Shown in pieces: positions 30,443-63,610 of a stretch of DNA of 64,000 nt. Made by a program: the position numbers and the translations under genes. Under the pieces are notes generated by a model. The model searched no databases. It was not told the origin of the DNA and was given only the letters and a program-made list of their open reading frames with translations. The stretch is from Lineus longissimus. Its lineage: Eukaryota; Nemertea; Pilidiophora; Heteronemertea; Lineidae. The DNA lies in NCBI RefSeq assembly GCF_910592395.1, contig NC_088312.1:5704001-5768000 (forward strand), written 5' to 3'. Each line of letters opens with the position of its first letter. Within the stretch, counting starts at the first letter, position 1.

Positions 30443-31108
30443 AAATGTCTTACTGATGTCTCACTTATAATGAAGGACGGTACGATGTCGATGCCGGAGT
30501 CCCAAGAAGAAGAGAGCAGCCCATCGGAAAATATGCAGATGGAGCTGCACAGCAAAGGTGCTGTTCTGACCAAAGCCTGGTCAGACTTGTTTAGCTTTAT
30601 AACGAAATATCAGGCAGAGCTGACGGTGAAGGAAAATGCTGTTGAAATTGCTGATCGGGAAATCTCCATGCGGAGAAAGCAGTTGGAGGAGATGAAACCG
30701 ATGGTGGAAGCAGGGAATGATGAGATATCCAGATTACAGGACGAGATTCAAACAAAGGAAAGACTGCTGAATAAGTCGCAAACTGAACTGTCTATGAAAG
30801 TACGAATGTTACAACAGGTGCAAACAGACTTATCTTGTAACATGGAACTTTTAGAAAAAGCCAGGTCTGAGCTCTTGGATAGACAGTCGGAACACGTGCG
30901 TGATACAAGTGATTTAGAACGCTTGAAATCCGAGCTGATCATTAAGCAGGAACAGATACTGATTAAAGACAATCTGCTGAAAAAGTTACAAAATCAGTTG
31001 ATGAAAGAAAACACTGAGCTTAGGGATCAGTTAGAACTTGAAAGAAGAGCCCTTGAATTGGAACGAAGGTCTCATGAACTGACTAAGAAAAGCCTTAGAG
31101 AAAAATCG
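30443..31108 (+). CDS. Locus 1 shared exon A: coiled-coil N-terminus
   Basis: The acceptor AG is at 30,441-30,442 after a pyrimidine tract. Coding starts at ATG 30,470 (MKDGTMSMPESQ), the first ATG not followed at once by a stop, and conserved in locus 2. Coding ends in phase 0 at the donor GTGAGT (31,109). It gives 213 residues. Residues 1-39 are acidic/serine-rich and then conserved (MELHSKGAVLTKAWSD). Residues 40-207 form twelve exact 14-residue repeats, such as KERLLNKSQTELSM, with a hydrophobic residue at position 5 and E/D-L/I at 11-12. That is an uninterrupted two-heptad coiled coil, so it is likely a homo- or heterodimerisation part. I do not recognise the family. It is not a BTB, KRAB, SCAN or ZAD domain. 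Confidence 0.9.
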
Positions 31109-31366
31109 GTGAGTCTCTTAAAATACATGTAGGTTGAGTGACAATAAAGATCGTTCACACCCATCGTGAGAGAGAATTTAACTTGATAAGAATCCGATAC
31201 CTTGTGTGCATATTTGGTGAAATCTGTGATGGCAACCGCCGAACAACATGATCACGACAGTCGACATAACACCATTTTGGGACATTACAAATTAAACTAA
31301 AATCTCTAGATGGGTCTTCATAAACACTGCCATTCTTGAACAATCCCAATGTTTTTTTCATTTCAG

Positions 31367-32008
31367 AAACCATCCCATGGTCTGTCCAGCAGTCACTCTG
31401 GCAATGTGATTGAGATCCCAGACTCCCCTCCAACTCTCGATCTTTCCGTCGAACAAGCAGATGATTTCGGCCTCTCAAACATCATATCTGAAGCCGAGTC
31501 CCAATCTCAACAAACGTCTCAACTTCGCTATTCCCAATCGCAGGAGTCTGCACCATCTCACATTGGATTTAGGTCTTCAGAGACATTTAGTACGCATTCT
31601 TCTTCATCCATGACAACCATGCCTGTAAAACGACATTGGCCCTCACAATCACAATCGCCCTCCACCTCATCAGCACAAAAATTTGCAAAGTTTTCACACA
31701 CACCAGTGGCCGATTCAGAATTCCCGCAACCAGGTGATAGTTATAATGAAGGCACTGCCACTCAGTCTGATGTGTTCTTTCCCTTGAGTGTCGATCCTGA
31801 TACAGACAGTAAAGCAGGTATCATTGACACCTCCGCTAGTGTTATGTATACAGACTCTGAAGTGCTGGGTGAGGGACAATATTCAGGTACCATGCCCGGT
31901 ACGCCTAGTTCAGAAACAAGTGACAGTAATCAGGGACCCCAAGTGTCAATGTCGGGGGCCGTTTCCAGTGCGGGATTGTCACCAGGACAAGTCGGACCTG
32001 ATGGAAAG
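31367..32008 (+). CDS. Locus 1 shared exon B: S/P/Q-rich segment with SIM-like motif
   Basis: The exon starts after TTTCAG at 31,361-31,366 and ends in phase 0 at the donor GTAGGG (32,009): 642 nt, 214 codons. It opens KPSHGLSSS. Conserved blocks shared with locus 2 are NVIEIPDSPPTLDLS, DFGLS.IIS.AES, FFPLSV and TSDSNQGP. The rest is low-complexity S, Q, P and T. VIEIPDS resembles a SUMO-interaction motif (hydrophobic core followed by acidic and phosphorylatable residues). The segment looks disordered and is likely an effector or partner-binding region. No enzyme domain is visible. With exon A it makes a 427-residue common part. Confidence 0.88.
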
Positions 32009-35000
32009 GTAGGGATCAGTTTGAAATACTCTTCCTGTAGTTTTAGATGTGTTGGAGGTCTTTATTTCGTTGGCAATCAGTCAGTGAGTCTGAGATGTTT
32101 TTATATTTATTCATTAGAATAGTGAATAAAAAGGGGAACTTTTTAAGTTGGTTGTTCATGATCTCATTGTCATGAATTTGTGTCAGTTTGAGAAATAATC
32201 TTGAAAGTTGAAAGCCAACTTCATATTCCTCTGAAGTTCTGAGATCAAACCTTTGAGTCTGAGGTGAAATTTCTTCCTGCTTGAAAGTTTTTGAAGTCTT
32301 TTCAGAGAGAGGAATCAAGAACATCTCACAGTCTGTTTGCCGTGTGATAAAGGGCTTCCAATAGAGGGTATGATATGGTAATGAAACAAGTGTCAAAGAT
32401 TGTCCAGCAATGTCTTGTCAAAAGATCGAATAAACTTTGAGATCTACATTTAAACAGCTTATTGAAAATACTGATTTTAGGCTAGTGGTATACTATGCAA
32501 AGACGGTTACAGGAAAATTCGTCCCTGGATAATTCGTCCCCCAGGAAAATTCGTCCCCGGAAAATTCGTTCCTGAGGATAATTCGTCCCCGGAAAATTTG
32601 TCCCCGAGGATAATTCGTCCCCGGAAAATTTGTCCCCGAGGATAATTCGTCCCCAGAATATTTTACAAAGTTGAAAGTTTCTGACTTTACTTTCTAAGAC
32701 TCTTAAGTCTTGTCAAATGGACTGTAGTAATAACTAATACTTTCGATTTTTCTCATTCAGTGTAACATCCCTCTTTACTACCATACTAGCCAGTTACCTA
32801 CCCCACTATTTTTATAGTAGGTAGAAGTAGGCAGGCGAAATATTTTATTGAAGAATTTAGAGCTTTTCTTTCATTCTGACCAGTAAAAATACTTATTTGA
32901 AAAAAAAATTTATTTAGCCTGCCTACTTCTACCTACTATGAAAAGAGTGGAGTAGGTAACTAGCTAGTAGGGTAGTAAAGAGAGATATAATGAATGAGAA
33001 AAGTCGAAAGTAGTAAGTAGTAGTTATTACTGGAAAGTAATGTCAGAAACTTTCAACTTTTGTTTAATTTTCCGGGGACGAATTATCTTAGAGGACGAAT
33101 TTCCCAGGGATGAATTATCCTAGTGGACATATTTTCCGGGGATGAAATTTTCCTCGGGGACGAATTTTCCAGGGACGAATTATCCTCGGGGACGAATTCT
33201 CCAGGGACGAATTATCCTCGGGGACGAATTTTCCTAGGGGACGAATTTTCCGGGGACAAGTTTTCCGGGGACGAATTTTCCTAGAGCCGCAAAGACCTGT
33301 GTGGTCACACACAGCCACATTGTTCATTGTGATCTACCCTGGACATTGCATATCATACCCTCTTATCACAACACATCACATCTCTTCGACTTGAGTACTT
33401 GTTCGCTTGCACTGAGCTTTCTTGGAAATAAGAGATTTGTGTACATCTGTAAAAAGTGAAGGATTGCTCTTCAAATTTTCAAATGTATTTAGAAGTGTTT
33501 AAAGAAAGGCCCTCCTCATCCTAAAAAACCGCCTATGAAGTTGATAACATGAACTAATTACTGTACATTTTGTACAAATCAGTGTCTGCCAACTTTTGAG
33601 TGCAGGACCTGGAAGTAATTTCCAAGTTTTTCGAGAAGTTTTGTGCAGACTGCAAGTGTGCGTGATCTAGTCAGTGTTGCTGATATGTTGAAGCAGTTGG
33701 TACAGTGTCATAAAAAACAAGATTAATCATATTGTCTCTATATCAAATGTGAGAAGATTTAGAAATGTATTCAATGGCTATTTTGATGATAGGTTTGTAT
33801 CAGGACACTGTGTACTCTGCTTTGACATGTCGCTATCCGGTTGCTTTCCTTGTGCCTTGACAAATAGATTCTATCAACTGATATATCTTGTCTGTATCCA
33901 TCTCTAGTACAGCTTTTAAAGAAACAATTCATGTCTGCACGGTATTGACCAGTATTGGCTGGAGTTTGTCAGCTGTACAAGTGAAAGTCTAGGTGAGCAG
34001 ATTTGAAGTTTAGGTGACTTGTCGGGAAAGACTTTCAACAAATCGGACAATCTGTTCCAGTTGGACTTGCAGATCATAGATATTCATTGATACACCTTGA
34101 AAATAGAATTTACCCCACTGCACTTCCTTCCATTTTAGGTTCAGAGATACTTCAATTTGTTTACATTTTCAGCAGAAGTTCTATCTTTCAGGATGCTTCT
34201 GTTTGTCCATGATTGACTTATAACATCCATTCAGATTATGTTACTTATTTTCAATACATGTAGCACTGAAAAAAGCCTTTTATTAACTGCCCTCTGGCTC
34301 TGACAGATATTCATATAGTATTGCAGAATCATTGCTCTCTCTACTTGTCGAGGATACACAAATGGAATACCACTGCAGAAATGTTGGAAATCCTGGATTC
34401 TGGGCGAACTGGATGCACGATAGGATAAAAACTGAGGTGCTTTGCCTTGCCATTTTCAGCAAAGAGTGTGATGTATACTGATGACAATAAAAGGGATGTG
34501 TGAATTTCAATAATAATGCATCGTACTTCAAGTCGTACAATAGAGCCCGAACTCATTCGGACTTGCAGTCATTGCCTTCAAAACCCATTGGGAATATCTG
34601 CTGAACAGTCCAATGCTCAGGCTCTTCAATTTTGTTTTGCACTTGCACCTTGGACAAAGGAAAGATCCTTTCACCTGTAAATGGTACAACAAACAGTTTC
34701 AAAGATGAAAAACCATGTGATTGTCACACAATGAAAGGGTGGTGCATTCATGAAAGAAAGGCCATGTGTGCAGACATGGCGTGAGGTGTTTTGGTTCTCG
34801 CACAGATGTGAAGAAGCATCTTACTTGTCATTTGGAATGCATGGCAAGTTATTATCAAGCAACGAATTAGAAGATCTAACTTGAAGCCCCATATCCCATT
34901 GGGTTTACAACACTGATGATCCACCATGCACAAGAGTTGGAGGAGAACCAAGCCAAAGCTTTGTGTCTGCAATTTGCAGTCCATCAAATGAGACCTAAAA

Positions 35001-35301: not shown

Positions 35302-35664
35302 TTTAGAACCCCAGATCGGGTGAGATCAGGAAAAATAATCAGCAGACACACACGAGAACCTCGTTCAGACATCACTGCATACAGATGTCCTGTTTGTGGG
35401 CTACACTGCCCGACACCTAGCACACTATCCAGACACATGGTGCAGCACACAGGGGAACGACCTCACATGTGTCAAATTTGCCATAAAAGCTTTACGCGGA
35501 GCTTTAGTTTGAAAGTGCATTACCGTGTCCATACTGGTGAAAGACCATACAAATGTGATATATGTGGGCGGCAGTTTGCCGTCAAGTCAAATCGAGAAGC
35601 ACACATGATGGTGCACAAGTCGAAAGAAATCCATTCTATGATATTACAAGACAAGGCAACATAG
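35302..35664 (+). CDS. Locus 1 terminal exon 1: three C2H2 fingers
   Basis: The acceptor TTTTGCAG ends at 35,301 and the frame opens in phase 0 with FRTPDRV, giving 120 residues and a 547-residue isoform. A 30-residue basic spacer leads to three fingers at about residues 32-54, 60-82 and 88-110. Recognition residues (-1,2,3,6) are T,S,T,R; R,F,S,V; V,S,N,A. Finger 1 has Cys where the core Phe normally sits. In finger 3 the core Leu of the helix is Arg (SNREAH), also seen in the exon at 39,815. Linkers are TGERP. The tail after the last His is 10 residues. Confidence 0.92.
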   Translation, partial: FRTPDRVRSGKIISRHTREPRSDITAYRCPVCGLHCPTPSTLSRHMVQHTGERPHMCQICHKSFTRSFSLKVHYRVHTGERPYKCDICGRQFAVKSNREAHMMVHKSKEIHSMILQDKAT

Positions 35665-36221: not shown

Positions 36222-36512
36222 CCTGCGCAAGCTTTGCCCGGAAAAGGTTTCGTATGTCAAATATGTGGCGCCATCTCTGCCCATCGTATGAATTACGAAG
36301 TCCACATGAGGACCCATACAGGAGAGAGACCTTTCAAATGTAACATTTGTGGAAAGACATGTCGCTCTAAAGGAAATCTTCAGATTCATACACGGATTCA
36401 TACAGGAGAAAAACCATATTCTTGTGACATTTGCAGGAAGGCATTCTCTCAGTCGGGCCATTTGCGGAGTCATAAGTTGACCCATATGTCGACAGATTTT
36501 CAAATGTTATGA
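36222..36512 (+). CDS. Locus 1 terminal exon 2: three C2H2 fingers, HR-NY type
   Basis: The exon opens at PAQALPGKG after CTACTTACAG and encodes 96 residues. Fingers lie at about 11-33, 39-61 and 67-89. Finger 1 ([17 protein letters not shown]) lacks the usual core Phe and has Tyr for the core Leu. The same odd finger recurs in the exons at 37,606 and 47,702 and in the relic at 38,200, marking one duplication lineage. Recognition residues are H,M,N,V; S,G,N,I; Q,G,H,S. The tail is HMSTDFQML. Confidence 0.92.
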
Positions 36513-36965: not shown

Positions 36966-37274
36966 TTGCAACGCAACCAACAAAATTCCAATCCTGCAAG
37001 GCGGCCGAATTTCATGTGTCTAATCTGTGATGTCCAGTTCCCAGAAAAACAAACCCTGGCCAGCCATATGCAGCAGCACGTGGGAGACTCACGGCCATAC
37101 AGCTGCACCTATTGTGAAAAAACCTTCCGCCAGAAACACCATCTTGGGGAACATTTACGTATCCATACGGGAGAGAAACCATTTGTTTGTAGCATCTGTG
37201 GGAAACGCTTTGCCAAGAAGTTTAATATGAGAGCGCACCATGTTACACATATCAGGAAAACACATTTGCACTGA
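36966..37274 (+). CDS. Locus 1 terminal exon 3: three C2H2 fingers
   Basis: The exon follows TTACTTTCAG (AG at 36,964-36,965) and opens LQRNQQNSN; 102 residues. Fingers lie at about 17-39, 46-68 and 74-96. Finger 1 ([17 protein letters not shown]) is joined to finger 2 by the long linker VGDSRP, in place of TGEKP. Recognition residues are E,Q,T,S; Q,H,H,E; K,F,N,A. ATTAAA at 37,290-37,295, just after the stop, is a possible weak poly(A) signal. Confidence 0.92.
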
Positions 37275-37605: not shown

Positions 37606-37932
37606 GCGGCCCCTGTCTCAAGGGATGGACGCCCTCCCTCAAAAAGCATTTGGAACAGACTGGTTAATTCTAGCAATTTGAAGTGTGAAATATGTGGAGC
37701 TGTTGCAAAACATCGCATAAACTATGAAATACACATGAGGACTCACACAGGAGAAAAACCTTTTAAATGTAACAACTGCGGTAAAGCGTTTGGCTCGAGG
37801 AATAATCTTGTGATTCATAATAGGTTGCATACTGGTGAGAAGCCATATGTTTGTAATGTTTGTGGGAAGACCTTCACCCAGTTGGGACACCTGAAGTGTC
37901 ATAAGTTAAGCCACACGATTTTTAAGTTCTAA
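37606..37932 (+). CDS. Locus 1 terminal exon 4: three C2H2 fingers, HR-NY type
   Basis: The exon follows TTTTACTTACAG and opens AAPVSRDGRPP; 108 residues. A 24-residue spacer leads to fingers at about 25-47, 53-75 and 81-103. Finger 1 (CEICGAVAKHRINYEIH) is the non-canonical type of exons 36,222 and 47,702. Recognition residues are H,I,N,I; S,N,N,I; Q,G,H,C. Linkers are canonical TGEKP. The tail is only TIFKF. Confidence 0.93.
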   Translation, partial: AAPVSRDGRPPSKSIWNRLVNSSNLKCEICGAVAKHRINYEIHMRTHTGEKPFKCNNCGKAFGSRNNLVIHNRLHTGEKPYVCNVCGKTFTQLGHLKCHKLSHTIFKF

Positions 37933-38475: not shown

Positions 38476-38567
38476 GTTGCAGTGTGGACAGCCTTAACCC
38501 AAGTCCTCATGTGTCTGTCTAGTTTTTGCTTTCTTTTCTAAGGAGTGCTTCTTATTTTATATTACAG

Positions 38568-38852
38568 AATGCACATCGGATCCAAAAGCGAGTACCGATA
38601 GTTCCTGCTAGTGTTAGGGAAACTAGCGTTCGCCATGACCTGCACCATCACAAATCATGTGAACGGCAACACACCTGTCCAAGTTGTGCGAAATCGTTCA
38701 CCCGCCCGAATCATTTGAGAGAACATATGCGTATTCACACAGGAGAAAGACCATATGCATGCAATATTTGTGGCAAGAGGTTTAACAACAAGGGAAATAT
38801 GAGAGCACATCAGATAGTACATTTAGGTGCTGATGGATTTAAACCAAAATAG
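38568..38852 (+). CDS. Locus 1 terminal exon 5: two C2H2 fingers
   Basis: The exon follows TTATATTACAG and opens NAHRIQKRVP; 94 residues. A 32-residue basic/His-rich spacer precedes fingers at about 34-56 and 62-84. Recognition residues are R,N,H,E and N,G,N,A. Finger 1 has the ...NHLREH helix shared with several exons to the right. The tail is LGADGFKPK. Confidence 0.92.
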   Translation, partial: NAHRIQKRVPIVPASVRETSVRHDLHHHKSCERQHTCPSCAKSFTRPNHLREHMRIHTGERPYACNICGKRFNNKGNMRAHQIVHLGADGFKPK

Positions 38853-39489: not shown

Positions 39490-39696
39490 ACTTACACTCC
39501 TGGCAATCGGTCTCGACCTCATCGATGTCAGTTTTGTAAAAAATCATTCAGCTGGTTGAGTGTCTTGCAAGAGCATGAGAGGATTCATACAGGAGAGAAA
39601 CCATTTCCTTGTGATTCTTGTGGGAAAAGATTTAAAAGGAAAGCGCATCTGAAAACTCACCAGATTACCCATCTGAAGCAAAACTTGATGCAGTAG
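39490..39696 (+). CDS. Locus 1 terminal exon 6: two C2H2 fingers
   Basis: The exon follows TTTACATTGCAG and opens [11 protein letters not shown]; 68 residues, one of the two shortest intact exons. Fingers lie at about 12-34 and 40-62. It belongs to the RHRCQFCxKSF group with the exons at 39,815, 40,517 and 40,835, a recent local expansion. Recognition residues are W,S,V,E and R,A,H,T. The tail is LKQNLMQ. Confidence 0.93.
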
Positions 39697-39814: not shown

Positions 39815-40021
39815 ACTTTCGCTCCCAGTTATCAGCCTCCTCCGCGACGTCATCGATGTCAGTTTTGTACAAAATCTTTCCACCAGGTGGGCCACCTGAG
39901 AGAACACGAAAGGACTCATACAGGAGAGAAACCATTTGCTTGTGAAATCTGTGGAAGAAGATTTGCTACAAAATCTAATCGGAAAGCGCACCAAGTCATC
40001 CATATGACGTTTAATACTTGA
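39815..40021 (+). CDS. Locus 1 terminal exon 7: two C2H2 fingers, no start codon of its own
   Basis: The exon follows ATATTTTTCAG (AG at 39,813-39,814) and opens TFAPSYQPPPRR; 68 residues ending in HMTFNT. Fingers lie at about 16-38 and 44-66, shown by CQFCTKSF...LREHERTH and CEICGRRF...RKAHQVIH. The only ATG in frame is after the last finger His, so it cannot be translated alone. Recognition residues are Q,G,H,E and T,S,N,A; the core Leu of finger 2 is Arg (SNRKAH). Confidence 0.92.
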   Translation, partial: TFAPSYQPPPRRHRCQFCTKSFHQVGHLREHERTHTGEKPFACEICGRRFATKSNRKAHQVIHMTFNT

Positions 40022-40260
40022 GACTTGGTAAAGTCTTCATTTGATTGTGAGGTCATCAAGACTAGGCAAGAATTCTATTTTTTGGTCCTGGAGACTGAAT
40101 ACTCTCAGAACAAATTGAATGACTCTGCTGCTCGTTTACATTACAGATAATTTGTCTTAGACAAGGACACCTAGCGATGCTTTCGGGTACCAAGAATCCA
40201 GCCAATCACTGTTCAACTTTGGCGTCTTTTCTACAGATTACTTCTTGTTTTCTATTACAG

Positions 40261-40479
40261 ACTCGGAGTAATCTGCCGAAAAGTCTTCAAACATCCCATG
40301 TTCGACGCAGGCAATGTCCGTTTTGTCCGAAAACGTTCAGGAATTCCGGTCACTTGAAAGAACACTTAAGAATTCACACAGGAGAAAAACCGTTTATTTG
40401 TGAAATCTGCGGCCAGCGATTTACTCGGAAATCAAATTTGCGAAGACATAGAATCAATCATTTGGAAGAAGAGTTTTGA
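40261..40479 (+). CDS. Locus 1 terminal exon 8: two C2H2 fingers
   Basis: The exon follows TTTTCTATTACAG and opens [10 protein letters not shown]; 72 residues. Fingers lie at about 19-41 and 47-69. Recognition residues are N,G,H,E and R,S,N,R. The last finger has two arginines in the contact positions, unlike its neighbours. Its stop is only 37 bp from the start of the next terminal exon, so there is almost no room for its own 3' UTR. Confidence 0.93.
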
Positions 40480-40516: not shown

Positions 40517-40726
40517 GCGACTCATCGTAGTCCGCTGCCTGGGCGACGTCGTCAATGTCGATTTTGTGCGAAATCTTTTGGCCAGTTGGGTCATCTGCGA
40601 GAACACGAAAGGATTCATACAGGAGAAAAACCTTTTCAGTGTGATACCTGTGGAAAGAGATTTACAAGGAAATCTCATTTAAAAAGTCACCAAGTTTCCC
40701 ACGTCAATCGGAACTGGATGCGGTAG
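40517..40726 (+). CDS. Locus 1 terminal exon 9: two C2H2 fingers
   Basis: The exon follows TTTTACATTGCAG and opens [12 protein letters not shown]; 69 residues. Fingers lie at about 14-36 and 42-64. Recognition residues are Q,G,H,E and R,S,H,S. Finger 1 has the same contact residues as exon 39,815. The tail is VNRNWMR. Confidence 0.93.
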
Positions 40727-40834: not shown

Positions 40835-41068
40835 ACTTGCGTTCCGTGTGATCTGCCTCATGGTCGTCAAACATTTCCTGGCCGATGTCATCACTGTCAG
40901 TTTTGTATGAAATCATTCAGGCGTTTGGGTCATTTGACAGAGCATGTCCGGATTCATACAGGAGAGAGACCATTTGAGTGTGATGTGTGCAAAAAACGAT
41001 TTACAACGAAATCACACCTGAAAAGTCATCGGATTACTCACATGAATCGAACCAGCAAGCTGTGGTAG
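40835..41068 (+). CDS. Locus 1 terminal exon 10: two C2H2 fingers, no usable start codon
   Basis: The exon follows TTCTATATTACAG (AG at 40,833-40,834) and opens [11 protein letters not shown]; 77 residues. Fingers begin [11 protein letters not shown] and CDVCKKRF. The first in-frame ATG falls inside finger 1, so the exon depends on splicing. Two extra Cys/His pairs before finger 1 (CVPC and CHHC) make the first zinc site ambiguous, but CQFC fits the finger spacing. Recognition residues are R,G,H,E and T,S,H,S. Confidence 0.92.
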
Positions 41069-41302: not shown

Positions 41303-41620
41303 ACTTTTGACCTGAGGAGCAATCACTTCAAAGCCACTTTAGGGACCAACATTCGAAAATTTCCTAGTAGCGCGACGTTACCTAAGTTGCCAGTCTCTTC
41401 TTCAACAGTATGCCGTAGTCTGAGGGATTCGAGTCTGGGCCATCCAGGTTTTCAGTGTCCAGTTTGCACAAAACTATTCGTGCGGAGGAATCATCTGAGA
41501 GATCATATGAATATTCATACAGGAGAGAAACCGTATGCATGTGATATTTGTGGGAAAGGATTTACGCAGAAATCTAACTTGAATTCACATCAGATTACTC
41601 ACATGCAGTTCAAGCCTTGA
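41303..41620 (+). CDS. Locus 1 terminal exon 11: two C2H2 fingers with long spacer
   Basis: The exon follows TTTATATTGCAG and opens TFDLRSNHFK; 105 residues. A 48-residue serine-rich spacer precedes fingers at about 51-73 and 79-101. Recognition residues are R,N,H,D and Q,S,N,S. The tail is MQFKP. The spacer is the longest among the two-finger exons of this locus. Confidence 0.93.
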   Translation, partial: TFDLRSNHFKATLGTNIRKFPSSATLPKLPVSSSTVCRSLRDSSLGHPGFQCPVCTKLFVRRNHLRDHMNIHTGEKPYACDICGKGFTQKSNLNSHQITHMQFKP

Positions 41621-42020: not shown

Positions 42021-42323
42021 ACGGCTTTTCCTATTCAGCCTCCAGATGCAACAACTTCTCAACCTAGGAACCAGATATGTCCAGTTTGCCAGAAAGTCTA
42101 CATCAATCCTTCTGATTTACGCCAACACATCCAAAGACATTTCGGTCGTCAATACGCATGTACAATATGTACAAAGTCGTTTAGCCGCCCCAGCCACCTG
42201 GAAGAGCATATTCGGACTCACACAGGAGAGAAGCCGTTCTCTTGTGATATTTGTGGGAAGCGATTTTGTAAGAAAGGAAATCTAAAAACGCATAAAATGG
42301 TTCATGTGCAATTCAATTGTTGA
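42021..42323 (+). CDS. Locus 1 terminal exon 12: three C2H2 fingers
   Basis: The exon follows TTGTATATTGCAG and opens TAFPIQPPDA; 100 residues. Finger 1 (CPVCQKVYINPSDLRQH) is joined to finger 2 by FGRQ, one of the few non-TGEKP linkers. Fingers 2 and 3 carry R,S,H,E and K,G,N,T; finger 1 carries N,S,D,Q. The tail is VQFNC. Confidence 0.93.
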   Translation, partial: TAFPIQPPDATTSQPRNQICPVCQKVYINPSDLRQHIQRHFGRQYACTICTKSFSRPSHLEEHIRTHTGEKPFSCDICGKRFCKKGNLKTHKMVHVQFNC

Positions 42324-42558: not shown

Positions 42559-43548
42559 GACATGCATACAAGCAGACGACAAAATTCGGCTGTTGAGTTA
42601 ACAGGTCATCCTTTAGTATGTAAAATTTGTGGACTGATCTTTTCATGTCCGTCCTCACTGAAGGATCATAGCACGAAACACACATGTGAAAAGCTGTACA
42701 AGTGCTCTGTTTGTGATAAAGCATTCTCTACAAGCGCGTATCTTCTCATTCATGAACAAAATCATACTGGTGACAGACCATTCCAATGCTCTCATTGTGA
42801 AAAAGCATTTGTAACACCAGGCATTTTGAAACAACATGAAAAAATTCACACGGCAAAGAAATGTTTCAAATGCTCTGTTTGTGAGCGTGCATTCTTGAGG
42901 TTTGCAGATTTAAGATATCATCTCCATGTTCATACTGGAAAAAAAGCATTTCCTTGTAGTCAGTGTGGGAGAAGATACACGCACAAACGTGATATGATGA
43001 GACATGAACGTGAACACTCTACTGGTCCAATTTCATATGAATGCGATCAGTGTGATAAAACGTATACATCCAGACCAATTTTGATTAGACATAAGCGTAC
43101 TCACACAGGAGAAAGACCTTTCAAATGTTCAGATTGTAACAAAGCGTTTCTTTCTCGGAGCGAGCTGACAGTCCATAGCAAATGTGTTCACTCAGATGAA
43201 ACACCATTTCAATGTTCACATTGCATCAAAGCGTTCAAAACTCGAGCAAAGTTGGTGAAACATACTCGCACTCATACGGGAGAAAAACCATTTAGCTGTT
43301 CACATTGTGATCAAGCATTTGCATGTACAAGCACTTTAAAGCTTCACACTCAGCGGATTCACACAGGGGTGAAAAGATTCAAATGTCCAAATTGTGAGAA
43401 AATGTTTTCAACACCTGGTGATGTAAAAATTCATGCGAGTGTTCATTCTGAAGATCGACCATACCAATGTTCTCAGTGTGGGATCAAGTTCAAAAACAAG
43501 AGAGACTGCAGATCGCATGAACTTAGACACCTGCGAGAAAAAGAATGA
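42559..43548 (+). CDS. Locus 1 terminal exon 13: eleven C2H2 fingers
   Basis: The exon follows TCTATTTGCAG and opens DMHTSRRQNS; 329 residues, giving an isoform of about 756. Eleven fingers run almost without gap from about residue 18 to the end, most starting CSxC and with linkers of the HTGERPFKC type. Some linkers are altered (HTAKKC, HTGKKA, HSDETP, HTGVKR). Fingers 7 and 9 have H-X4-H ends. With this many fingers it could bind a long site, or RNA or protein. It differs in style from its neighbours and may have joined the locus from another finger gene. Confidence 0.93.
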   Translation, partial: DMHTSRRQNSAVELTGHPLVCKICGLIFSCPSSLKDHSTKHTCEKLYKCSVCDKAFSTSAYLLIHEQNHTGDRPFQCSHCEKAFVTPGILKQHEKIHTAKKCFKCSVCERAFLRFADLRYHLHVHTGKKAFPCSQCGRRYTHKRDMMRHEREHSTGPISYECDQCDKTYTSRPILIRHKRTHTGERPFKCSDCNKAFLSRSELTVHSKCVHSDETPFQCSHCIKAFKTRAKLVKHTRTHTGEKPFSCSHCDQAFACTSTLKLHTQRIHTGVKRFKCPNCEKMFSTPGDVKIHASVHSEDRPYQCSQCGIKFKNKRDCRSHELRHLREKE

Positions 43549-44736: not shown

Positions 44737-45051
44737 ACAACCTCACAGATGCTCTCGAGAGAAGCCTGGAGAACAGTTGCGTCATCATTTGACCGATTCC
44801 GATGTCACATCTGTGGTGTCATCACCAGCTGCCGTGGTAATCTAGACGTTCATATTCGTAGCCACACTGGAGAAAAGCCATTCAAGTGTGAATTTCCTAT
44901 GTGCGAATACCGTTGCAATAAAAAATCCAACTTAAAAGTTCACATGAGGATTCACACAGGAGAGAAACCATATACTTGTGATATTTGTGGGAAAAGCTTT
45001 ACTTGGTTGGATCAGATGAAGATGCATAGGACTGAACATAGAGGAAAATAA
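44737..45051 (+). CDS. Locus 1 terminal exon 14: three C2H2 fingers
   Basis: The exon follows TTTCTCTCTTGCAG and opens TTSQMLSREAW; 104 residues. Finger 1 (CHICGVITSCRGNLDVH) lacks the core Phe. Finger 2 has a C-X4-C pair (CEFPMC) and again Cys where Phe is usual. Finger 3 is canonical. Recognition residues are C,G,N,V; K,S,N,V; W,D,Q,M. The exon ends EHRGK. Confidence 0.93.
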   Translation, partial: TTSQMLSREAWRTVASSFDRFRCHICGVITSCRGNLDVHIRSHTGEKPFKCEFPMCEYRCNKKSNLKVHMRIHTGEKPYTCDICGKSFTWLDQMKMHRTEHRGK

Positions 45052-45408: not shown

Positions 45409-46527
45409 TTAATTGCGCCAATTGATTTCCCAAGAAGAAAGAGCAGGGAACGACTGACTTGTGAACACTGTGGATACTTTACAATGTCACCTTGGAGTCT
45501 AAGACAACATGTCCTTCGTCATACAGGGGAAAGGCGGTTTGCATGTCCGATATGTACCAAGCGTTTCAATAGGGAGCGTAACCTTAGAGCTCACTTGAAG
45601 ATTCATTCGAGGGATCCAATTAAGTGCGATACCTGTGGTAATGTTTACATGACTGAAGGCCTCTTGAAGCGGCACCAAGCGAGCCATCTCACTGATCCTG
45701 AAAAAAAGAAAAAGAGCCGGAAAAAATATTCTTGCGAATATTGTGGATATTTTACTATTTCACCGGCTCTTCTACGAGAGCATGAGAGACGTCACACTGG
45801 CGAATACTTTAACTGTGAAAAATGTGATTCCGTGTTTCGGAAAAAGTCTTCCTTAAAGACGCACATGCTCACTCATGAAGTAGATAAGCTATTCCCTTGT
45901 GAAACTTGTGGGAAAAAGTTCCTGCAAGAGGCGGATGCAGTAGCTCATCAGAAAAAACACACAGAGCCGCAGAAAGAGACGCCACAGAAGAAGAAAAAAG
46001 TTACTTGTGAATATTGTGGATATTTTACCACTATACCATATCGCCTCCGTGATCACATAAGGCGTCACATTGGAGACACCGTCAAATGTGAAAAATGTGA
46101 TTCAGTGTTTCGTAACAAGTCTACTCTAAAGAAGCACATGCTGACTCATGAAGAAGGTCGGCAGTTCTTGTGCGATCTTTGTGGCAAAAGTTTCCCAAAA
46201 GAGGCGGATGCGATTGCTCATCAGAAAAAGCATACAGAGCCACAAGGAGATGAAGCTGAGGAGGATAACAAGTCAAACAGAATCGCTTGCCATATGTGTG
46301 ACTTAGTCTTGAAGAAGTCGTATTTTAAGACTCACATGCTGATCCACACTGGGGAAAAGCCAATCCCGTGTCCATTGTGCGACAAACGGTTTAGGGCTAA
46401 GAACAATCTCAAACGCCATATGGAGACACATGCCCCCCGTGATCCATTTAAATGTGGTGTCTGTGGTAATGTTTACATGACCGAGGGTCACTTGAAGAGA
46501 CATGAGTTAACACATTTAACAGAATAG
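45409..46527 (+). CDS. Locus 1 terminal exon 15: twelve C2H2 fingers in modular repeats
   Basis: The exon opens LIAPIDFPRRK in phase 0 and encodes 372 residues, an isoform of about 799. Twelve fingers fall in a modular order A-B-C, A-D-E, A-D-E, D'-B-C. A is CEYCGYF..., B is C..C.KRF..., C is CGNVYMTEG..., D is CEKCDSVF..., E is C..CGK.F..EADA.AH. Finger 10 (D') is one residue short between the second Cys and the first His (CDLVLKKSYFKTH). Lysine-rich spacers, such as EKKKKSRKK and QKKKK, separate the modules and could act as nuclear-localisation signals. Confidence 0.93.
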   Translation, partial: LIAPIDFPRRKSRERLTCEHCGYFTMSPWSLRQHVLRHTGERRFACPICTKRFNRERNLRAHLKIHSRDPIKCDTCGNVYMTEGLLKRHQASHLTDPEKKKKSRKKYSCEYCGYFTISPALLREHERRHTGEYFNCEKCDSVFRKKSSLKTHMLTHEVDKLFPCETCGKKFLQEADAVAHQKKHTEPQKETPQKKKKVTCEYCGYFTTIPYRLRDHIRRHIGDTVKCEKCDSVFRNKSTLKKHMLTHEEGRQFLCDLCGKSFPKEADAIAHQKKHTEPQGDEAEEDNKSNRIACHMCDLVLKKSYFKTHMLIHTGEKPIPCPLCDKRFRAKNNLKRHMETHAPRDPFKCGVCGNVYMTEGHLKRHELTHLTE

Positions 46528-47004: not shown

Positions 47005-47313
47005 TTCTTGAACTTAGCAATGAGACAAGCACCTGGGAATTGGGCAACCACAAACAACACTTTGAGATGTCAGCTCTGTGGCGTGGTCTCGGAAACTTAT
47101 GCAAGTTTTGAGACCCATTTGAAAACACATGACAAGCAGAGACAGTTTAAATGTGACGTTTGTCAGAAATTTTTCACAAGGAAAGATAATCTTCGAACTC
47201 ACAAGAGGATCCACACAGGAGAGAAGCCATACTGTTGTAAAATTTGTGGAAAACGCTTTTCTGATAATAGCGGCCTGAGACAGCATATTGTGGTTCATGC
47301 ATCAGTTATATAA
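47005..47313 (+). CDS. Locus 1 terminal exon 16: three C2H2 fingers
   Basis: The exon follows TATTTCTTTGCAG and opens FLNLAMRQAPG; 102 residues. Finger 1 (CQLCGVVSETYASFETH) lacks the core Phe, and Phe takes the place of the core Leu. The linker to finger 2 is DKQRQ. Recognition residues are T,A,S,T; R,D,N,T; D,S,G,Q. The tail is ASVI. Confidence 0.92.
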   Translation, partial: FLNLAMRQAPGNWATTNNTLRCQLCGVVSETYASFETHLKTHDKQRQFKCDVCQKFFTRKDNLRTHKRIHTGEKPYCCKICGKRFSDNSGLRQHIVVHASVI

Positions 47314-47701: not shown

Positions 47702-48016
47702 CCAGGAAGCATGTCGCTTGGACTGAAACACAGCCAATCTGAAGTCCAAATCTCCAACAACCCTTTGCAGTGTCAGATCTGTGGCGCCCTCTCCAAACAT
47801 CGTACCAACTATGAAAGCCATATGAGAAGACATACGGGTGAACGACCATTCAAGTGTCCCACGTGTAACAAGGCATTCAACACTAAAGGCAGCCTCAATT
47901 TACATCTGCGCATTCACACAGGAGAAAAACCATATGCTTGTGAAATTTGCGGAAAGTGTTTCTCGGATCGGAGGAACTTGAAGACACACTCTTTTATACA
48001 TATGCAAAGATATTAG
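47702..48016 (+). CDS. Locus 1 terminal exon 17: three C2H2 fingers, HR-NY type
   Basis: The exon follows TTTCTATTTACAG and opens PGSMSLGLKHS; 104 residues. Finger 1 (CQICGALSKHRTNYESH) is the non-canonical type of 36,222 and 37,606, about 10 kb away, so this lineage is dispersed through the locus. Recognition residues are H,T,N,S; T,G,S,L; D,R,N,T. The tail is MQRY. Confidence 0.93.
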   Translation, partial: PGSMSLGLKHSQSEVQISNNPLQCQICGALSKHRTNYESHMRRHTGERPFKCPTCNKAFNTKGSLNLHLRIHTGEKPYACEICGKCFSDRRNLKTHSFIHMQRY

Positions 48017-48715: not shown

Positions 48716-49015
48716 TTTATTCAGACAGCTGGAGAATGGGTTAATCACTTGGATATGCTCACAGAATGTCCAATCTGTGCTGCGACCTTCACCAGACCAT
48801 CCAGCCTCAAGGTTCACTTCAGAAAACATACCGGTGAAAGACCCTATAAGTGTAACTACTGCCCTAAAGCTTTCATTTCAGGGAGCCATCTGAAAATACA
48901 TGAACGTATTCATACTGGTGATAAACCATATGTGTGTAAGGTATGTAGTAGAGCTTTTAACCAGCGAAGTAACTTGAGGGGCCACCAGGTTACTCATTTC
49001 AAACCAGTTGAGTAG
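48716..49015 (+). CDS. Locus 1 terminal exon 18: three C2H2 fingers (last intact exon)
   Basis: The exon follows TTTTCTTTGCAG and opens FIQTAGEWVNH; 99 residues. Fingers lie at about 19-41, 47-69 and 75-97. Recognition residues are R,S,S,V; S,S,H,I; Q,S,N,G. The second linker is HTGDKPY. AATAAA at 49,596 and 49,725 are candidate poly(A) signals for the 3' end of the locus. Confidence 0.93.
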   Translation, partial: FIQTAGEWVNHLDMLTECPICAATFTRPSSLKVHFRKHTGERPYKCNYCPKAFISGSHLKIHERIHTGDKPYVCKVCSRAFNQRSNLRGHQVTHFKPVE

Positions 49016-49969: not shown

Positions 49970-51650
49970 TGCCAAGCTGTGAAATTTGCTGCACCACCAG
50001 ACCATTTTGTCTCAGTCACAGCCTAAGACACACTTCTGTCTCAACCTTGGACAAACTCACCCATGCCCTGCTGTGAAATGACCATACTGTCTCAGTCACA
50101 GCATTGGTCCAGGACGTGTATCAGACAAAGCCACACTTCTGTCACAACCTTGGACTAACTCGCTCCGTGATGCCTAGCTCGGACCCTTGGTGCACTACCT
50201 GACCATTCTGTCTCAGTCACAGTCTGGGCCAGGACATGTATTAGTCAAAGACACACTTCTGTCACAACCTTGGACTAACTCGCTCCGTGATGCCTAGCTC
50301 GGACCCTTGGTGCACTACCTGACCATTCTGTCTCAGTTACAGTCTGGGCCAGGACATGTATTAGTCAAAGATACACTTCTGTCACAACCTTGGACTAACT
50401 CGTTCCGTGATGCCTAGCTCGGACCCTTGGTGCACTACCTGACCATTCTGTCTCAGTTACAGTCTGGGCCAGGACATGTATTAGTCAAAGACACACTTCT
50501 GTCACAACCTTGGACTAACTCGCTCCGTGATGCCTAGCTCGGACCCTTGGTGCACTATCTGACTATTCTGTCTCAGTCACAGTCTGGGACCAGGACATGT
50601 ATTAGTCAAAGACACACTTCTGTCACAACCTTGGACTAACTCGCTCCGTGATGCCTAGCTCGGACCCTTGGTGCACTACCTGACCATTCTGTCTCACTCA
50701 CAGCATTGGTCCAGGACGTGTATCAGACAAAGACACACTTCTATCACAACCTTGGACTAACTCGCTCCGTGATGCCTAGCTCGGACCCTTGGTGCACTAC
50801 CTGACCATTCTGTCTCAGTCAGAGCATTGGTCCAGGACATGTATTAGTCAAAGACACACTTCTGTCACAACCTTGGACTAACTCGCTCCGTGATGCCTAG
50901 CTCGGACCCTTTGTGCACTACCTGACCATTCTGTCTCAGTCACAGTCTGGGCCAGGACATGTATTAGTCAAAGACACACTTCTGTCACAACCTTGGACTA
51001 ACTCGCTCCGTGATGCCTAGCTCGGACTCTTGGTGCACTACCTGACCATTCTGTCTCAGTTACAGTCTGGGCCAGGACATGTATTAGTCAAAGATACACT
51101 TCTGTCACAACCTTGGACTAACTCGCTCCGTGATGCCTAGCTCGGACCCTTGGTGCACTACCTGACCATTCTGTCTCAGTCACAGTCTGGGCCAGGACAT
51201 GTATTAATCAAAGACACACTTCTATCACAACCTTGGACTAACTCGCTCCGTGATGCCTAGCTCGGACCCTTGGTGCACTACCTGACCATTCTGTCTCAGT
51301 TACAGTCTGGGCCAGGACATTTATTAGTTAAAGATACACTTCTGTCACAACCTTGGACTAACTCGCTCCGTGATGCCTAGCTCGGAACCTTGGTGCACTA
51401 CCTGACCATTCAGTCTCAGTCACAGTCTGGGCCTGGACATGTATTAGTCAAAGATACACTTCTGTCACAACCTTGGACTAACTCGCTCCGCGATGCCCAG
51501 CTCGGACCCTTGGTGCACTACCTGACCATTCTGTCTCAGTCACAGTCTGGGCCAGGACATGTATTAGTCAAAGATACACTTCTGTCACAACCTTTGACTA
51601 ACTCGCTCCGTGATGCCTAGCTCGGAACCTTGGTGCACTACCTGACCATC
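49970..51650. repeat. 120-bp minisatellite, about 13-14 copies
   Basis: The unit contains CTTGGACTAACTCGCTCCGT, ATGCCTAGCTCGGACCCTTG and TGGTGCACTACCTGACCATT, then a CTCAGT(C/T)ACAG phrase, and repeats at exactly 120 bp through most of the array. The left end (to about 50,140) is degenerate and shorter. Two unit variants (CAGTCACAG...AGACACACTT and CAGTTACAG...AGATACACTT) are intermixed. Some units are open in one frame, but most have a stop in GATGCCTAG, so it is not coding. It separates the two finger loci. Confidence 0.97.
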
Positions 51651-56629: not shown

Positions 56630-57303
56630 GTCAAATTGTTGATGTTGCGTTGATAATGAAGGACACGGATGGTACATGTACAATGTCGATGCCAGAATCT
56701 CAAGAAGAGAGCAGCCCATCGGAAATTATGCAGATGGAGCTGCACAGCAAAGGTGCTGTTCTGACCAAAGCCTGGTCAGACTTGTTTAGCTTCATAACAA
56801 AGTATCAGGCAGAGCTGACGGTGAAGGAAAATGCTGTTGAAATAGCTGAACGGGAGATTGATGTGCGTAAAAGACAATTAGAGGAAATGAAACCAATGGT
56901 GGAAGCAGGGAATGAGGAGGTAGAAAAATTACAAGAAGAGATTCGAACCAAGGAAAGACTGCTGAGCAAATCACAATCAGAACTTTCTGTGAAAGAGCAG
57001 TTGTTAAGAAGGGTGCAGTCAGACTTGAACTGCAACATGGAACTTTTAGAAAAAGCCAGATGTGATCTTTTAGATAGACAATCAGAACTTGTGCGCAACA
57101 GGGGTGACTTAGAACGCTTAAAATCTGAACTGACTATAAAACAGGAACAAATTCAAATAAAAGACAATTTATTGAGAAAGTTACAAAATCAGTTGATGAA
57201 AGAAAATGCTGAACTGAAGGAGCAGTTGGAGCTGAAGGAAAGAACCCTTGAAATAGAACGAAGGTCCCATGAACTCACCAAGAGAACACTCCGTGAAAAA
57301 TTA
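56630..57303 (+). CDS. Locus 2 shared exon A: coiled-coil N-terminus
   Basis: The acceptor TATTTTTTAG ends at 56,629, and 26 nt of 5' UTR precede ATG 56,656 (27 nt in locus 1). Coding ends at the donor GTAAGT (57,304), phase 0, 216 residues. The twelve 14-residue coiled-coil repeats of locus 1 are kept in register, with no indel inside them. The only length changes are near the N-terminus (MKDTDGTCTMSMPESQEESS). The stretch encoding MELHSKGAVLTKAWSDLFSF to KENAVEI is nearly identical to locus 1 in DNA as well as protein, while the rest of the exon has diverged. Confidence 0.9.
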
Positions 57304-57456: not shown

Positions 57457-58155
57457 AAACCATCTGCCAGTGCTGTGCAAACTGTGATAGAGATTCCAGA
57501 TTCCCCTCCAACTTTAGATCTTTCTGACGAGCAAACAGATTTTGGCCTTTCCAGGATAATTTCTGTAGCTGAGAGTCGAGGCAAACGTCCGTCTGGAATG
57601 GATTTAGACTTGCCAGCCAAACGATTTCATTCCACCACCCAGGATAGTGCTATGCCTTGCTTATCAGCTGTAAGTTCTGACACTTTCCCAGACCTTTCAA
57701 GAAGTTCTCAACCAATGCCAACTGCTACAAAACCACAGCAACAATGGTCTATGCCATCTCCCTCTGCCATTTCACCTCGCCAGGTTCCACAGCCACGAAC
57801 ACCTACTCAGTTGCCTCCTAGTCCTACCTTCCAAGAATCGTACGCACAGAGTGACAATTTCAATGTTACTGCCACATCTGCCAGTGCCAGTGATACCTTC
57901 TTTCCATTAAGTGTCTCACAAGGTGAGGAGGACTCAAAAGCATGCATTGACACATCTGCTGGTGCTATGTACCACTCGGATGCTGAAATGCAGGGATCAG
58001 GACTATATATGCCTGAAACAGCTGGAAGTTCTGGGACAAGTGACAGTAATCAGGGGCCCCCTGTGCCCATATCAGGGCCTATTCCAAGTACGGGAATGTC
58101 ACCTGGTGGCAGCATGTCACCTGGGGGATCAACACAAGAAGGAGCTGAAGGAAAG
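57457..58155 (+). CDS. Locus 2 shared exon B: S/P/Q-rich segment with SIM-like motif
   Basis: The exon follows TTGTTTTTCAG and opens KPSASAVQTVIEIPDS; it ends at the donor GTAGGG (58,156), phase 0, 233 codons. Blocks shared with locus 1 are VIEIPDSPPTLDLS, DFGLS.IIS.AES, FFPLSV, IDTSA..MY and SDSNQGP. The P-rich middle is longer than in locus 1, and MSPGGS is duplicated near the end. The combined common part is 449 residues. Confidence 0.88.
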
Positions 58156-59820: not shown

Positions 59821-60174
59821 ACTGCAGTGCCTCATCCTTTCATACAGAGATCTGGCCAGTTCAACACTGCAACTGCTCTTCAACAGCACATGCTATCTGA
59901 TAGCCTTAAAAAGCGTTTGAAGTGTTCTTACTGTTCCAAGTTATTCTCTGGGACCACTGCCTTAAAGCATCATACCCGAACCCACACTGGTGAGAAGCCA
60001 TTCGTTTGTAAAGAATGTGGTAAAGGTTTCATTCAGAAAATCTCACTCTCAAACCACATAAAAACCCACACTGGAGAGAGACCTTATGCTTGCAATATTT
60101 GTTCGAAAACGTTTGTGCACGAATGTAACCTTCGTATCCATAAAATCACTCATATGAATGTACAGTTTGTATGA
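59821..60174 (+). CDS. Locus 2 terminal exon 1: three C2H2 fingers
   Basis: The exon follows TGTGTTTTCCAG and opens TAVPHPFIQRS; 117 residues. A 37-residue spacer with His and Gln precedes fingers at about 38-60, 66-88 and 94-116. Recognition residues are G,T,A,H; Q,I,S,N; H,C,N,I. Linkers are TGEKP and TGERP. The last finger ends in HKITHMNVQFV. Confidence 0.93.
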   Translation, partial: TAVPHPFIQRSGQFNTATALQQHMLSDSLKKRLKCSYCSKLFSGTTALKHHTRTHTGEKPFVCKECGKGFIQKISLSNHIKTHTGERPYACNICSKTFVHECNLRIHKITHMNVQFV

Positions 60175-61023: not shown

Positions 61024-61308
61024 TTGGACCAGTTGAAGACAGCAAGGAATTATCAGACATTCTTTAACTCTGGAGCAGCTTTTCCCAATCCAGACAACCT
61101 AAAAGCACAGGGCTCACTAAAAAATCAGTGTTTAATATGTAAAAAGGTCTTTAAATATAAAAAGGATCTCACTCGACATTTCCGTATTCATACAGGAGAG
61201 AAACCATTTTCATGCAATACTTGTGGAAAGAAGTTTACAACCAATGGAAACTTGAAGTCACATCAAGTAACACATCTGCAGCACAAATTCCTTGGATTAT
61301 TGAACTAA
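61024..61308 (+). CDS. Locus 2 terminal exon 2: two C2H2 fingers
   Basis: The exon follows TTTTTTGTTTGCAG and opens [11 protein letters not shown]; 94 residues. A 35-residue spacer precedes fingers beginning CLICKKVF and CNTCGKKF. Recognition residues are Y,K,D,R and T,G,N,S. The tail is [10 protein letters not shown]. Confidence 0.93.
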
Positions 61309-61610: not shown

Positions 61611-61997
61611 TTCGTACTGTCCCTGAATCCACTTAAGTGTATGGTTTGTGGCAAAACATCCCAGGACATCGCTGATTTAACCGTCCACTTGAACGAGCAT
61701 CCTGGCAGTCGAATGTGTCAGTGTGCTGCTTGCAACCAAATGTGTCACAAAAGTGTCTTTATCCAACACATTGAGGCTCATCTCAGGCGGCTTCACACTG
61801 ATCTTCTTCGGATTGATAAACGTCCTTACAAATGTCCGTCTTGCCCAAAGCGATTCGCACAGAAGGGTCACATGCAGCGGCATACTCTTCTCCATACCGG
61901 AGAGAAACCATTTGAGTGCAACACATGTGGGAAACGTTTTGCAAGGAAGGATGCGGTGGTTGGACACCAAGTGGTCCATATAAATCCAAAAACATAG
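61611..61997 (+). CDS. Locus 2 terminal exon 3: four C2H2 fingers, two of them irregular
   Basis: The exon opens FVLSLNPLKCM in phase 0 and encodes 128 residues. Finger 1 (CMVCGKTSQDIADLTVH) lacks the core Phe. Finger 2 (CAACNQMCHKSVFIQH) is one residue short between the cysteine pair and the first His. A long 17-residue linker containing LRRLHTDLLRIDKRP then separates this pair from the canonical fingers 3 and 4, whose contacts are Q,G,H,R and R,D,A,G. AATAAA at 62,339-62,344 is a likely poly(A) signal. Confidence 0.92.
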   Translation, partial: FVLSLNPLKCMVCGKTSQDIADLTVHLNEHPGSRMCQCAACNQMCHKSVFIQHIEAHLRRLHTDLLRIDKRPYKCPSCPKRFAQKGHMQRHTLLHTGEKPFECNTCGKRFARKDAVVGHQVVHINPKT

Positions 61998-62806: not shown

Positions 62807-63094
62807 ATTTCTCATAACAGTGAAACAGTAAGAGAACGGCTGCGATGTCCTGTGTGTGGTTTTGTAGCAAAATCTCTGGCCAGTCTCGCACCTCATGTTC
62901 GGATTCACTCTGGAAAAGATGCGTATCCGTGTCCGGTTTGCAATAAAGGATTTAATACTAGCTGGAATTTAACCCAACATCTACGTATCCATACTGGAGA
63001 GAAACCATATTCATGTGATTATTGTGGGAAAAGATTTTCAATCAAAAGCAACATGAAGTCACACTTGGTTACTCATATGAGACCTAACTTTTAG
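62807..63094 (+). CDS. Locus 2 terminal exon 4: three C2H2 fingers
   Basis: The exon follows TATGTCTTGCAG and opens ISHNSETVRER; 95 residues. Finger 1 (CPVCGFVAKSLASLAPH) lacks the core Phe. The linker SGKDAYP replaces TGEKP. Recognition residues are S,A,S,P; T,W,N,Q; I,S,N,S. The exon ends HMRPNF. It is a close relative of the dead exon before it and the intact exon after it. Confidence 0.93.
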   Translation: MSHNSETVRERLRCPVCGFVAKSLASLAPHVRIHSGKDAYPCPVCNKGFNTSWNLTQHLRIHTGEKPYSCDYCGKRFSIKSNMKSHLVTHMRPNF

Positions 63095-63322
63095 CATGGA
63101 ACAAGTTGAGCAAGGACTAGGATGTACTTTTCGGGGAGGATATTTAGTCACAAGCATTGCCCGTGGTTGATATATATGAGACAGAAGACGTAGGCACGAA
63201 AGATGGCAACTAAAGAAAATAAAATACATCTTCTTTTGCAGTTTTCTCTTCAGTAAAGAAATAGATGATGGGAGTGTTATGAGTATAACACAACTGATCT
63301 TTCGTATCATTATATCTTGCAG

Positions 63323-63610
63323 ATTTCTTTTAAGACTTCACAGAAACAATGGAAATGTCCACAGTGTGATTATCAGGCTAGATCTTCATGGAACCTTTCT
63401 CTGCATCATAATAGGATCCATCATTCAGGAGAACGACGTCATGTGTGTTCTGTATGCAATAAAGGATTTATGACTAACTGGGAGTTGAGACGACATTTGA
63501 GGGTCCACACAGGAGAGAAGCCATATGCTTGTGGAATTTGTGGAAAAAGATTTTCTGTTGAAAGTAGTCTCAACAGACATCAAATGACTCACATGAAACT
63601 TGACTTTTAA
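63323..63610 (+). CDS. Locus 2 terminal exon 5: three C2H2 fingers
   Basis: The exon follows TTATATCTTGCAG and opens ISFKTSQKQWK; 95 residues. Finger 1 (CPQCDYQARSSWNLSLH) lacks the core Phe and has an H-X4-H end (HHNRIH). Its linker is SGERRH. Recognition residues are S,W,N,L; T,W,E,R; V,S,S,R. The exon ends HMKLDF. AATAAA at 63,819-63,824 is a likely poly(A) signal. Confidence 0.93.
   Translation: MSFKTSQKQWKCPQCDYQARSSWNLSLHHNRIHHSGERRHVCSVCNKGFMTNWELRRHLRVHTGEKPYACGICGKRFSVESSLNRHQMTHMKLDF

Follow-up and report, generated by a model that had tools for sequence, protein, structure and literature searches.

Loci of the nemertean Lineus longissimus that probably splice one coiled-coil front to one of many zinc-finger ends

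The loci closest in style to those described here are lola and mod(mdg4). At lola, common N-terminal exons are joined to unique C-terminal exons, and the consulted part of the source counts at least 20 isoforms, most of them with zinc fingers and three without (PMC1947980). At mod(mdg4), one common part gives more than 30 isoforms; these are trans-spliced, with separately promoted ends of which some lie on the opposite strand, and intronic motifs matter for the joining, as far as the available excerpt describes it (PMC12692577). We analyzed 64,000 nucleotides (nt) of the nemertean Lineus longissimus, contig C5 (chromosome 5), positions 5,704,001-5,768,000. This whole stretch is called the window below. 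It contains two loci, locus 1 and locus 2, in which a shared front is followed by many zinc-finger ends. We consider such a locus to be one transcription-factor gene, whose constant front is spliced to one of many ends, and we assign this reading a probability of about 0.82.

Locus 1 has two shared coding exons (213+214=427 amino acids) followed by 18 finger ends. At locus 2, a front of two shared coding exons (216+233=449 amino acids) precedes five ends inside the window. The common-exon junctions of both loci are all in phase 0. A six-frame scan of the full window with one C2H2 pattern identified 23 finger open reading frames (ORFs), 18 after locus 1 and five after locus 2, all on one strand. 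For each of these 23 ends we assigned a phase-0 acceptor with the sequence TTNCAG, and each carries a stop of its own. The initial annotation had called two shared phase-0 exons at each locus, followed by 18 and at least five finger exons; our coordinates and translations of the former agreed with it, and so did the counts of the latter. The features are given below; the rows of ends are based on the finger-pattern scan, the phase-0 acceptor assignment and the stop.

30443..31108, plus strand, locus 1 common exon 1: short part of the 5' untranslated region (UTR), ATG at 30470, 213 amino acids, one long predicted helix (coiled coil); based on sequence, translation, RefSeq P0001-P0003 (100% match over the common part), heptad test and AlphaFold helix
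31367..32008, plus strand, locus 1 common exon 2: 214 amino acids, predicted disordered, with VIEIPDSPPTLDLS (like a SUMO-interaction motif, SIM, plus CtBP-like) and FFPLS motifs
32009..32021, plus strand, locus 1 variable-junction donor GTAGGGATCAGTT
35302..35664, plus strand, locus 1 end 1, zinc fingers
36222..36512, plus strand, locus 1 end 2, zinc fingers
36966..37274, plus strand, locus 1 end 3, zinc fingers
37606..37932, plus strand, locus 1 end 4, in RefSeq isoform X4 (P0002)
38568..38852, plus strand, locus 1 end 5, zinc fingers
39490..39696, plus strand, locus 1 end 6, zinc fingers
39815..40021, plus strand, locus 1 end 7, zinc fingers
40261..40479, plus strand, locus 1 end 8, zinc fingers; another candidate phase-0 acceptor would give a start at 40237
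40517..40726, plus strand, locus 1 end 9, zinc fingers; 37 nt from the stop of end 8
40835..41068, plus strand, locus 1 end 10, zinc fingers
41303..41620, plus strand, locus 1 end 11, zinc fingers
42021..42323, plus strand, locus 1 end 12, zinc fingers
42559..43548, plus strand, locus 1 end 13, 11 fingers
44737..45051, plus strand, locus 1 end 14, zinc fingers
45409..46527, plus strand, locus 1 end 15, 11 fingers, in RefSeq isoform X1 (P0003)
47005..47313, plus strand, locus 1 end 16, zinc fingers
47702..48016, plus strand, locus 1 end 17, in RefSeq isoform X6 (P0001)
48716..49015, plus strand, locus 1 end 18, zinc fingers
56656..57303, plus strand, locus 2 common exon 1, coding part: ATG at 56656, 216 amino acids, coiled coil by sequence, translation and heptad test
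57457..58155, plus strand, locus 2 common exon 2: tail of 233 amino acids
58156..58168, plus strand, locus 2 variable-junction donor GTAGGGATCAGTT, identical to that of locus 1
59821..60174, plus strand, locus 2 end 1, zinc fingers; alternative start 59848 in the same phase
61024..61308, plus strand, locus 2 end 2, zinc fingers
61611..61997, plus strand, locus 2 end 3, zinc fingers
62807..63094, plus strand, locus 2 end 4, zinc fingers
63323..63610, plus strand, locus 2 end 5, zinc fingers; five more ends lie past the window edge

Two repeats were observed beside these features. The intron between the locus-1 common part and end 1 holds a foldback-like inverted repeat, whose arms consist of tandem 32-nt units (32504-33289), and a tandem array lies between loci 1 and 2 (50079-51649; 120-bp unit, 13 copies, 95% matches).

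We assessed the acceptors with a frame-blind score, which used generic weights over 260 nt 5' of the first finger. The top AG was in phase 0 for 21 of the 23 window ends; in three of the 23 it lay upstream of the ORF, where phase is meaningless, and of the remaining 20 it was in phase 0 in 18. In 17 of the 23 ends it was the assigned acceptor itself; the exons are duplicates, hence these trials are not independent. Over 334 kb of chromosome 5, the top acceptor was in phase 0 for 82 of 101 multi-finger ORFs, and for 72 of the 81 with the AG inside the ORF. Phase 0 is also the commonest intron phase in animals. Scanning the 23 window ends for NAGGTRAG gave no matches.

Joining of the front to the ends was observed in RefSeq isoforms, where the locus-1 front is followed by three of its 18 ends (X1, 45409; X4, 37606; X6, 47702). 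The cluster of P0001 holds 11 member sequences, so that at least three and at most 13 locus-1 ends have a protein model. P0021 is labelled by RefSeq as isoform X19 of its gene. We tested 19 RefSeq isoforms of seven loci and located 18 of them, at six loci; the other one was outside the fetched DNA. All 18 located ends start after a phase-0 AG. In 17 of them the end lies downstream of its own common exons on the same strand, while the common exons of the eighteenth, P0047, were not located. Two of the 18 (P0007 and P0009) match only partway and continue into a further exon. An end made of a single exon is the rule, not a universal one; the earlier statement that every finger exon has a phase-0 acceptor and its own stop applies to all 23 window ends, and the two exceptions to single-exon ends lie elsewhere in the family.

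The front was modelled with AlphaFold on an alignment of 23 sequences. Residues 18-212 formed a helix, mostly with a predicted local distance difference test score (pLDDT) above 90, which stopped at the exon boundary. Residues 214-443 nearly all had pLDDT below 50, read as disorder, and were followed by three fingers. The heptad pattern was matched by 1 of 2000 shuffles for locus 1, by 0 of 2000 for locus 2 and by 0 to 7 of 2000 for five other family members. We found no match to BTB, KRAB or SCAN in the four common exons of loci 1 and 2 at E<=1; the scan gave only two weak hits, to other models and both under their cut-off, in locus-2 exon 1. No solved structure related to that exon was found at E<=0.01. 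The heptad test, the helix and the lack of a domain match bear out the initial annotation, which had described the common part as a coiled coil plus a disordered tail without BTB. Exon 1 is under strong constraint (ratio of nonsynonymous to synonymous divergence, dN/dS, between loci 1 and 2 of 0.11 at dS 0.97) and exon 2 is under less (0.46).

The tail of locus 1 carries VIEIPDSPPTLDLS, and related motifs recur over 27 common parts: VIEIPD in 18, [FY]FPL in 25, [VI]S[GEQ]P[IF] in 19 and [LMFI]DLS in 23. The [LMFI]DLS match of P0014 and P0057 falls in the coiled coil; their tails hold TLDLS (P0014) and FDLS (P0058, from the gene of P0057). Four of the 27 (P0039, P0062, P0073, P0074) had no DLS match. 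VIEI we take to be a SUMO-interaction motif. PPLDLS in the gene of P0042 includes PLDLS, and most others have PTLDLS, which is not the exact motif. It is through PLDLS that CtBP binds transcription factors, according to the part of the source at hand (PMC9907507).

The donor at which the end would be chosen was analyzed separately. Both window loci have GTAGGGATCAGTT as exon-2 donor, and it occurs nowhere else in the window. Six of ten loci have it exactly and the other four have close variants. The donor flank (+7..+13) had a mean of 1.67 bits per position in the ten loci, as compared with 0.74 for the exon-1 donors of seven of the same loci, which served as control for shared descent; the remaining three loci, whose exon-1 donors could not be extracted cleanly, were omitted from this control. 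The seven exon-1 donors are mostly ordinary GTRAGT. Five jgi ORFs read K and then VGI through the exon-2 donor boundary. Because the donor match is extended, it suggests a putative dedicated element at the junction where the end is chosen.

Further, we compared the contents of the ends. Contact-residue codes were distinct in 80 of 81 canonical-finger ends (window plus RefSeq representatives), as expected once fingers have diverged; taken alone, this is no sign of selection. Among 88 ends, 15 of the 18 locus-1 ends had another locus-1 end as best match; this set contains every locus-1 end and only cluster representatives of other genes, which favours matches within the locus. The locus-2 ends at 62807 and 63323 had as best match P0006, an end of the P0005 gene; copying of whole arrays followed by divergence would give this pattern. 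HTH_Tnp_Tc5 domains were detected in the ends of P0004 (E 2.9e-16) and P0007 (E 8.6e-9), and residues 502-631 of P0004 match the CENP-B DNA-binding structure 1hlv (E 2.4e-10). The P0007 end lies at C5 11,406,820 (L022) with its join traced; that of P0004 was not located. Interchangeable finger ends had been proposed for the window, and this stands for the three RefSeq joins of locus 1; the two isoforms elsewhere end in Tc5/CENP-B-type domains instead. P0046, P0058, P0065 and P0073 had no match to a Pfam DNA-binding domain, and the P0065 end matched no solved structure at E<=0.1. The ends of P0058, P0065 and P0073 may be new domains or, by analogy with lola, finger-less partners.

A spliced locus-1 isoform was used as search query, with its front 427 residues scored, and 67 proteins were obtained among the best 8000 candidates scored: 66 from Lineus longissimus (RefSeq/UniRef) and one jgi metagenome ORF. 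In three such protein searches, each with the best 8000 candidates scored, the Lineus share was 66/67, 66/78 and 46/54, the rest were jgi or lgn ORFs, and no other named species was matched; the searches do not demonstrate a restriction to nemerteans. The 66 Lineus matches contain 24 distinct common parts, to which we added P0073 and P0074 from the second search and three loci (locus 2, locus 3 and a locus at 11.43 Mb) whose exon 1 stays below 95% identity with every retrieved protein. The family therefore has at least 29 paralogous loci. A DNA search of the 391-Mb assembly, in which rows overlapping query positions 1-675 were taken as exon-1 places, gave at least 22 such places, 21 on C5 and one on C11; these counts are lower bounds. 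Chromosomes 5 and 11 measure 23.94 Mb and 19.19 Mb in the published assembly, by the portion of its description available (PMC8593623).

Locus 2 goes on to 10 ends, five of them past the window, and is followed by locus 3, in which four ends come after two common exons (C5 5,773,466 to about 5,778,940; 69466-74938 on the window scale, with its donor at 71141). The tandem pair noted at first is thus present in the window, as part of a triplet of 18+10+4 ends within the larger family. The 32 triplet ends all have the same strand as the common exons, and the finger pattern had no match in the 20 kb upstream of the window or in the 39 kb after the last triplet end. Another 69 multi-finger ORFs (49 plus, 20 minus) lie at C5 11.34-11.54 Mb. 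By position, 66 of them were assigned to five arrays (7, 22, 13, 6 and 18 ends), on the same strand as their common exons. Of the other three, one is the end of P0047, and those at 11,396,584 and 11,390,556 fall clearly in no array. The same arrangement of front plus ends was found in all eight arrays read.

A tree of exon 1 was calculated for 37 rows. Locus 2 grouped with P0004/P0005 (97/83) and these with P0009 (98/93), and not with locus 1. On this tree loci 1 and 2 are not demonstrably closest relatives, and we rejected a simple local duplication of locus 1 as the origin of locus 2. P0080, P0082 and P0083 formed a distant clade. Pairs of Lineus and jgi metagenome sequences with starred support were P0032/P0070, P0047/P0071, P0054/P0072, P0057/P0081 and P0074/P0075. 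Because five Lineus loci pair with jgi sequences, the family was probably multi-copy before the split of Lineus from the source animal or animals of the jgi contigs.

We propose the following mechanism. Common exon 1, the self-association helix, would be spliced to common exon 2, the disordered effector tail. The exon-2 donor with its conserved extended sequence would then be spliced to a single phase-0 acceptor, out of up to about 20 lying downstream, and each of these acceptors would lead into a distinct DNA-binding end that has its own stop. Ends downstream of the chosen one would stay in the mRNA as 3' UTR, because the tightest part of the locus-1 array is too cramped for separate promoters or polyadenylation, poly(A), sites. 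The products would be coiled-coil, probably dimeric zinc-finger proteins with common partners and effector motifs and with different DNA targets. We infer cis-splicing, shared poly(A) sites, dimerization within and between loci (and so the mixed dimers suggested earlier), contacts with SUMO and CtBP, and repression. Splicing at locus 2 would follow from its sequence and by analogy.

Several observations weigh against this reading. Only three of the 18 locus-1 joins were seen directly, and RefSeq 'X' isoforms are computed models. The locus-2 front used as search query yielded no protein carrying it. Among retrieved proteins the best exon-1 identity reached 91% (locus 2), 64% (locus 3) and 92% (11.43-Mb locus), so these three loci might be silent. 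The single-chain AlphaFold model had a predicted template modelling score (pTM) of 0.28 and cannot show a dimer. Most of the ten donor loci are close relatives, and part of the donor conservation is shared descent. Between paralogous ends, DNA-contact positions differed only slightly more than other finger positions (0.59 vs 0.52; 103 aligned fingers, 51 end pairs), and diversifying selection on contact residues was rejected on this ground. Docking-type base pairing between the donor flank and the acceptors was also rejected: complements of the flank were hardly enriched upstream of 86 acceptors (observed vs expected: AACTGAT 3 vs 1.7, AACTGAC 3 vs 0.9, AACTGA 8 vs 5.4, CTGAT 21 vs 16.1) and no docking motif was found. 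Neither AATAAA nor ATTAAA occurs in the nine gaps between locus-1 ends 4-13 (37-637 nt, 2,643 nt total; 3.4 expected), a weak deficit (Poisson 0.033) in a stretch picked after looking, and such motifs do follow ends 1, 3, 13, 16 and 18, clustered after 13 and 18. Gaps free of poly(A) motifs, together with motifs after some ends, therefore point to a single pre-mRNA on which acceptors are chosen and poly(A) sites are shared, and not to a promoter per end.

The front and the end groups could instead be separately promoted transcripts joined in trans, possibly between loci, in the manner of mod(mdg4). We find this unlikely, at odds well short of negligible. In the accessible text, mod(mdg4) trans-splices primarily via intronic motifs (PMC12692577) and lola employs both cis- and trans-splicing (PMC1947980). 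The Lineus loci share their phase and a conserved intron motif in the donor flank, so that any front could in principle meet any end. Own promoters of the finger exons would not refute joining either, because mod(mdg4) trans-splices its common exons to separately promoted 3' exons, as the same excerpt states (PMC12692577). Set against this are the gaps between ends, which go down to 37 nt and are too small for promoters; the co-linearity of 32 of 32 triplet ends on one strand; and the 17 of 18 located isoforms whose end follows, on the same strand, their own common exons. Far less probable is a reading in which the common exons form a coiled-coil gene of their own and each finger ORF is an independent zinc-finger gene or a degraded copy. 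The RefSeq joins already contradict this at locus 1, the fingers are intact, top acceptors are in phase 0 in 21/23 and 82/101 cases, and the arrangement is the same across the eight arrays. In its favour, tandem zinc-finger gene clusters are common in animals, and no retrieved protein has the front of locus 2 or 3.

Beyond the single gene with one front and many ends, we tentatively consider a wider picture, which we rate somewhat below even odds. The at least 29 loci, with their dedicated donor element and up to about 20 ends each, would form a chromosome-scale ribbon-worm system of several hundred coiled-coil proteins that pair across loci. Their menus of ends would grow by tandem exon duplication and by uptake of transposase DNA-binding domains, and fronts would perhaps be joined to the ends of neighbouring loci.

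The rest of the window was also searched. On its minus strand there were no finger-pattern ORFs, and none lay outside the regions 3' of loci 1 and 2. No RNA families or tRNAs were found in the window, and positions 1-30,400 yielded no finger-pattern ORF, RNA family or tRNA. Pfam was run on seven of the 11 ORFs of at least 100 amino acids in positions 1-30,380, with one weak match (E 0.096), below its cut-off. The literature search, with most subscription journals outside its scope, found no title or abstract start that describes a coiled-coil, swap-end finger family, in agreement with the initial annotation, which knew of none with such a common part.

Like lola, the Lineus loci join a shared front to one of many zinc-finger ends, at locus 1 by RefSeq models and at locus 2 by sequence only. 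Unlike lola, which has BTB in its common part, their front has a long predicted helix followed by a disordered tail, neither of which matches BTB, and there are at least 29 of them. They work like lola without its BTB domain. With mod(mdg4) they share the many ends served by one common part; they differ in that none of the 32 triplet ends is on the minus strand and some ends are 37-118 nt apart, a spacing that, going by the genomic layout, argues against trans-splicing of separately transcribed ends. Vertebrate KRAB/SCAN zinc-finger proteins, after which RefSeq named P0001, likewise form a large lineage-specific family whose genes lie in chromosomal clusters. The Lineus common part, in contrast, has no KRAB or SCAN match, and in Lineus both gene copies and the alternative ends of a single gene contribute to the diversity. 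P0004 and P0007, with Tc5-type DNA-binding domains behind the family front, resemble the transposase-capture fusions reportedly described by Cosby et al. in 2021 (cited in PMC12062965), except that in Lineus the captured domain is one of many alternative ends and not a single fusion. The loci may also belong with coiled-coil dimeric transcription factors: the front has a heptad pattern and a predicted helix, and it would have to dimerize.

Insect BTB genes are the best-known examples of transcription-factor loci with exchangeable 3' ends. Here the same logic is found with an unrelated helical front, in a different phylum and in dozens of loci, nearly all on one chromosome. Because the front is unrelated and the phylum different, this suggests that the end-swapping design evolved independently in Lineus. 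These loci offer a system for how one donor picks among about 20 acceptors, for protein pairing across loci and for transposase domains becoming ends of transcription factors. In this way, one design may supply the animal with hundreds of related gene-control proteins.

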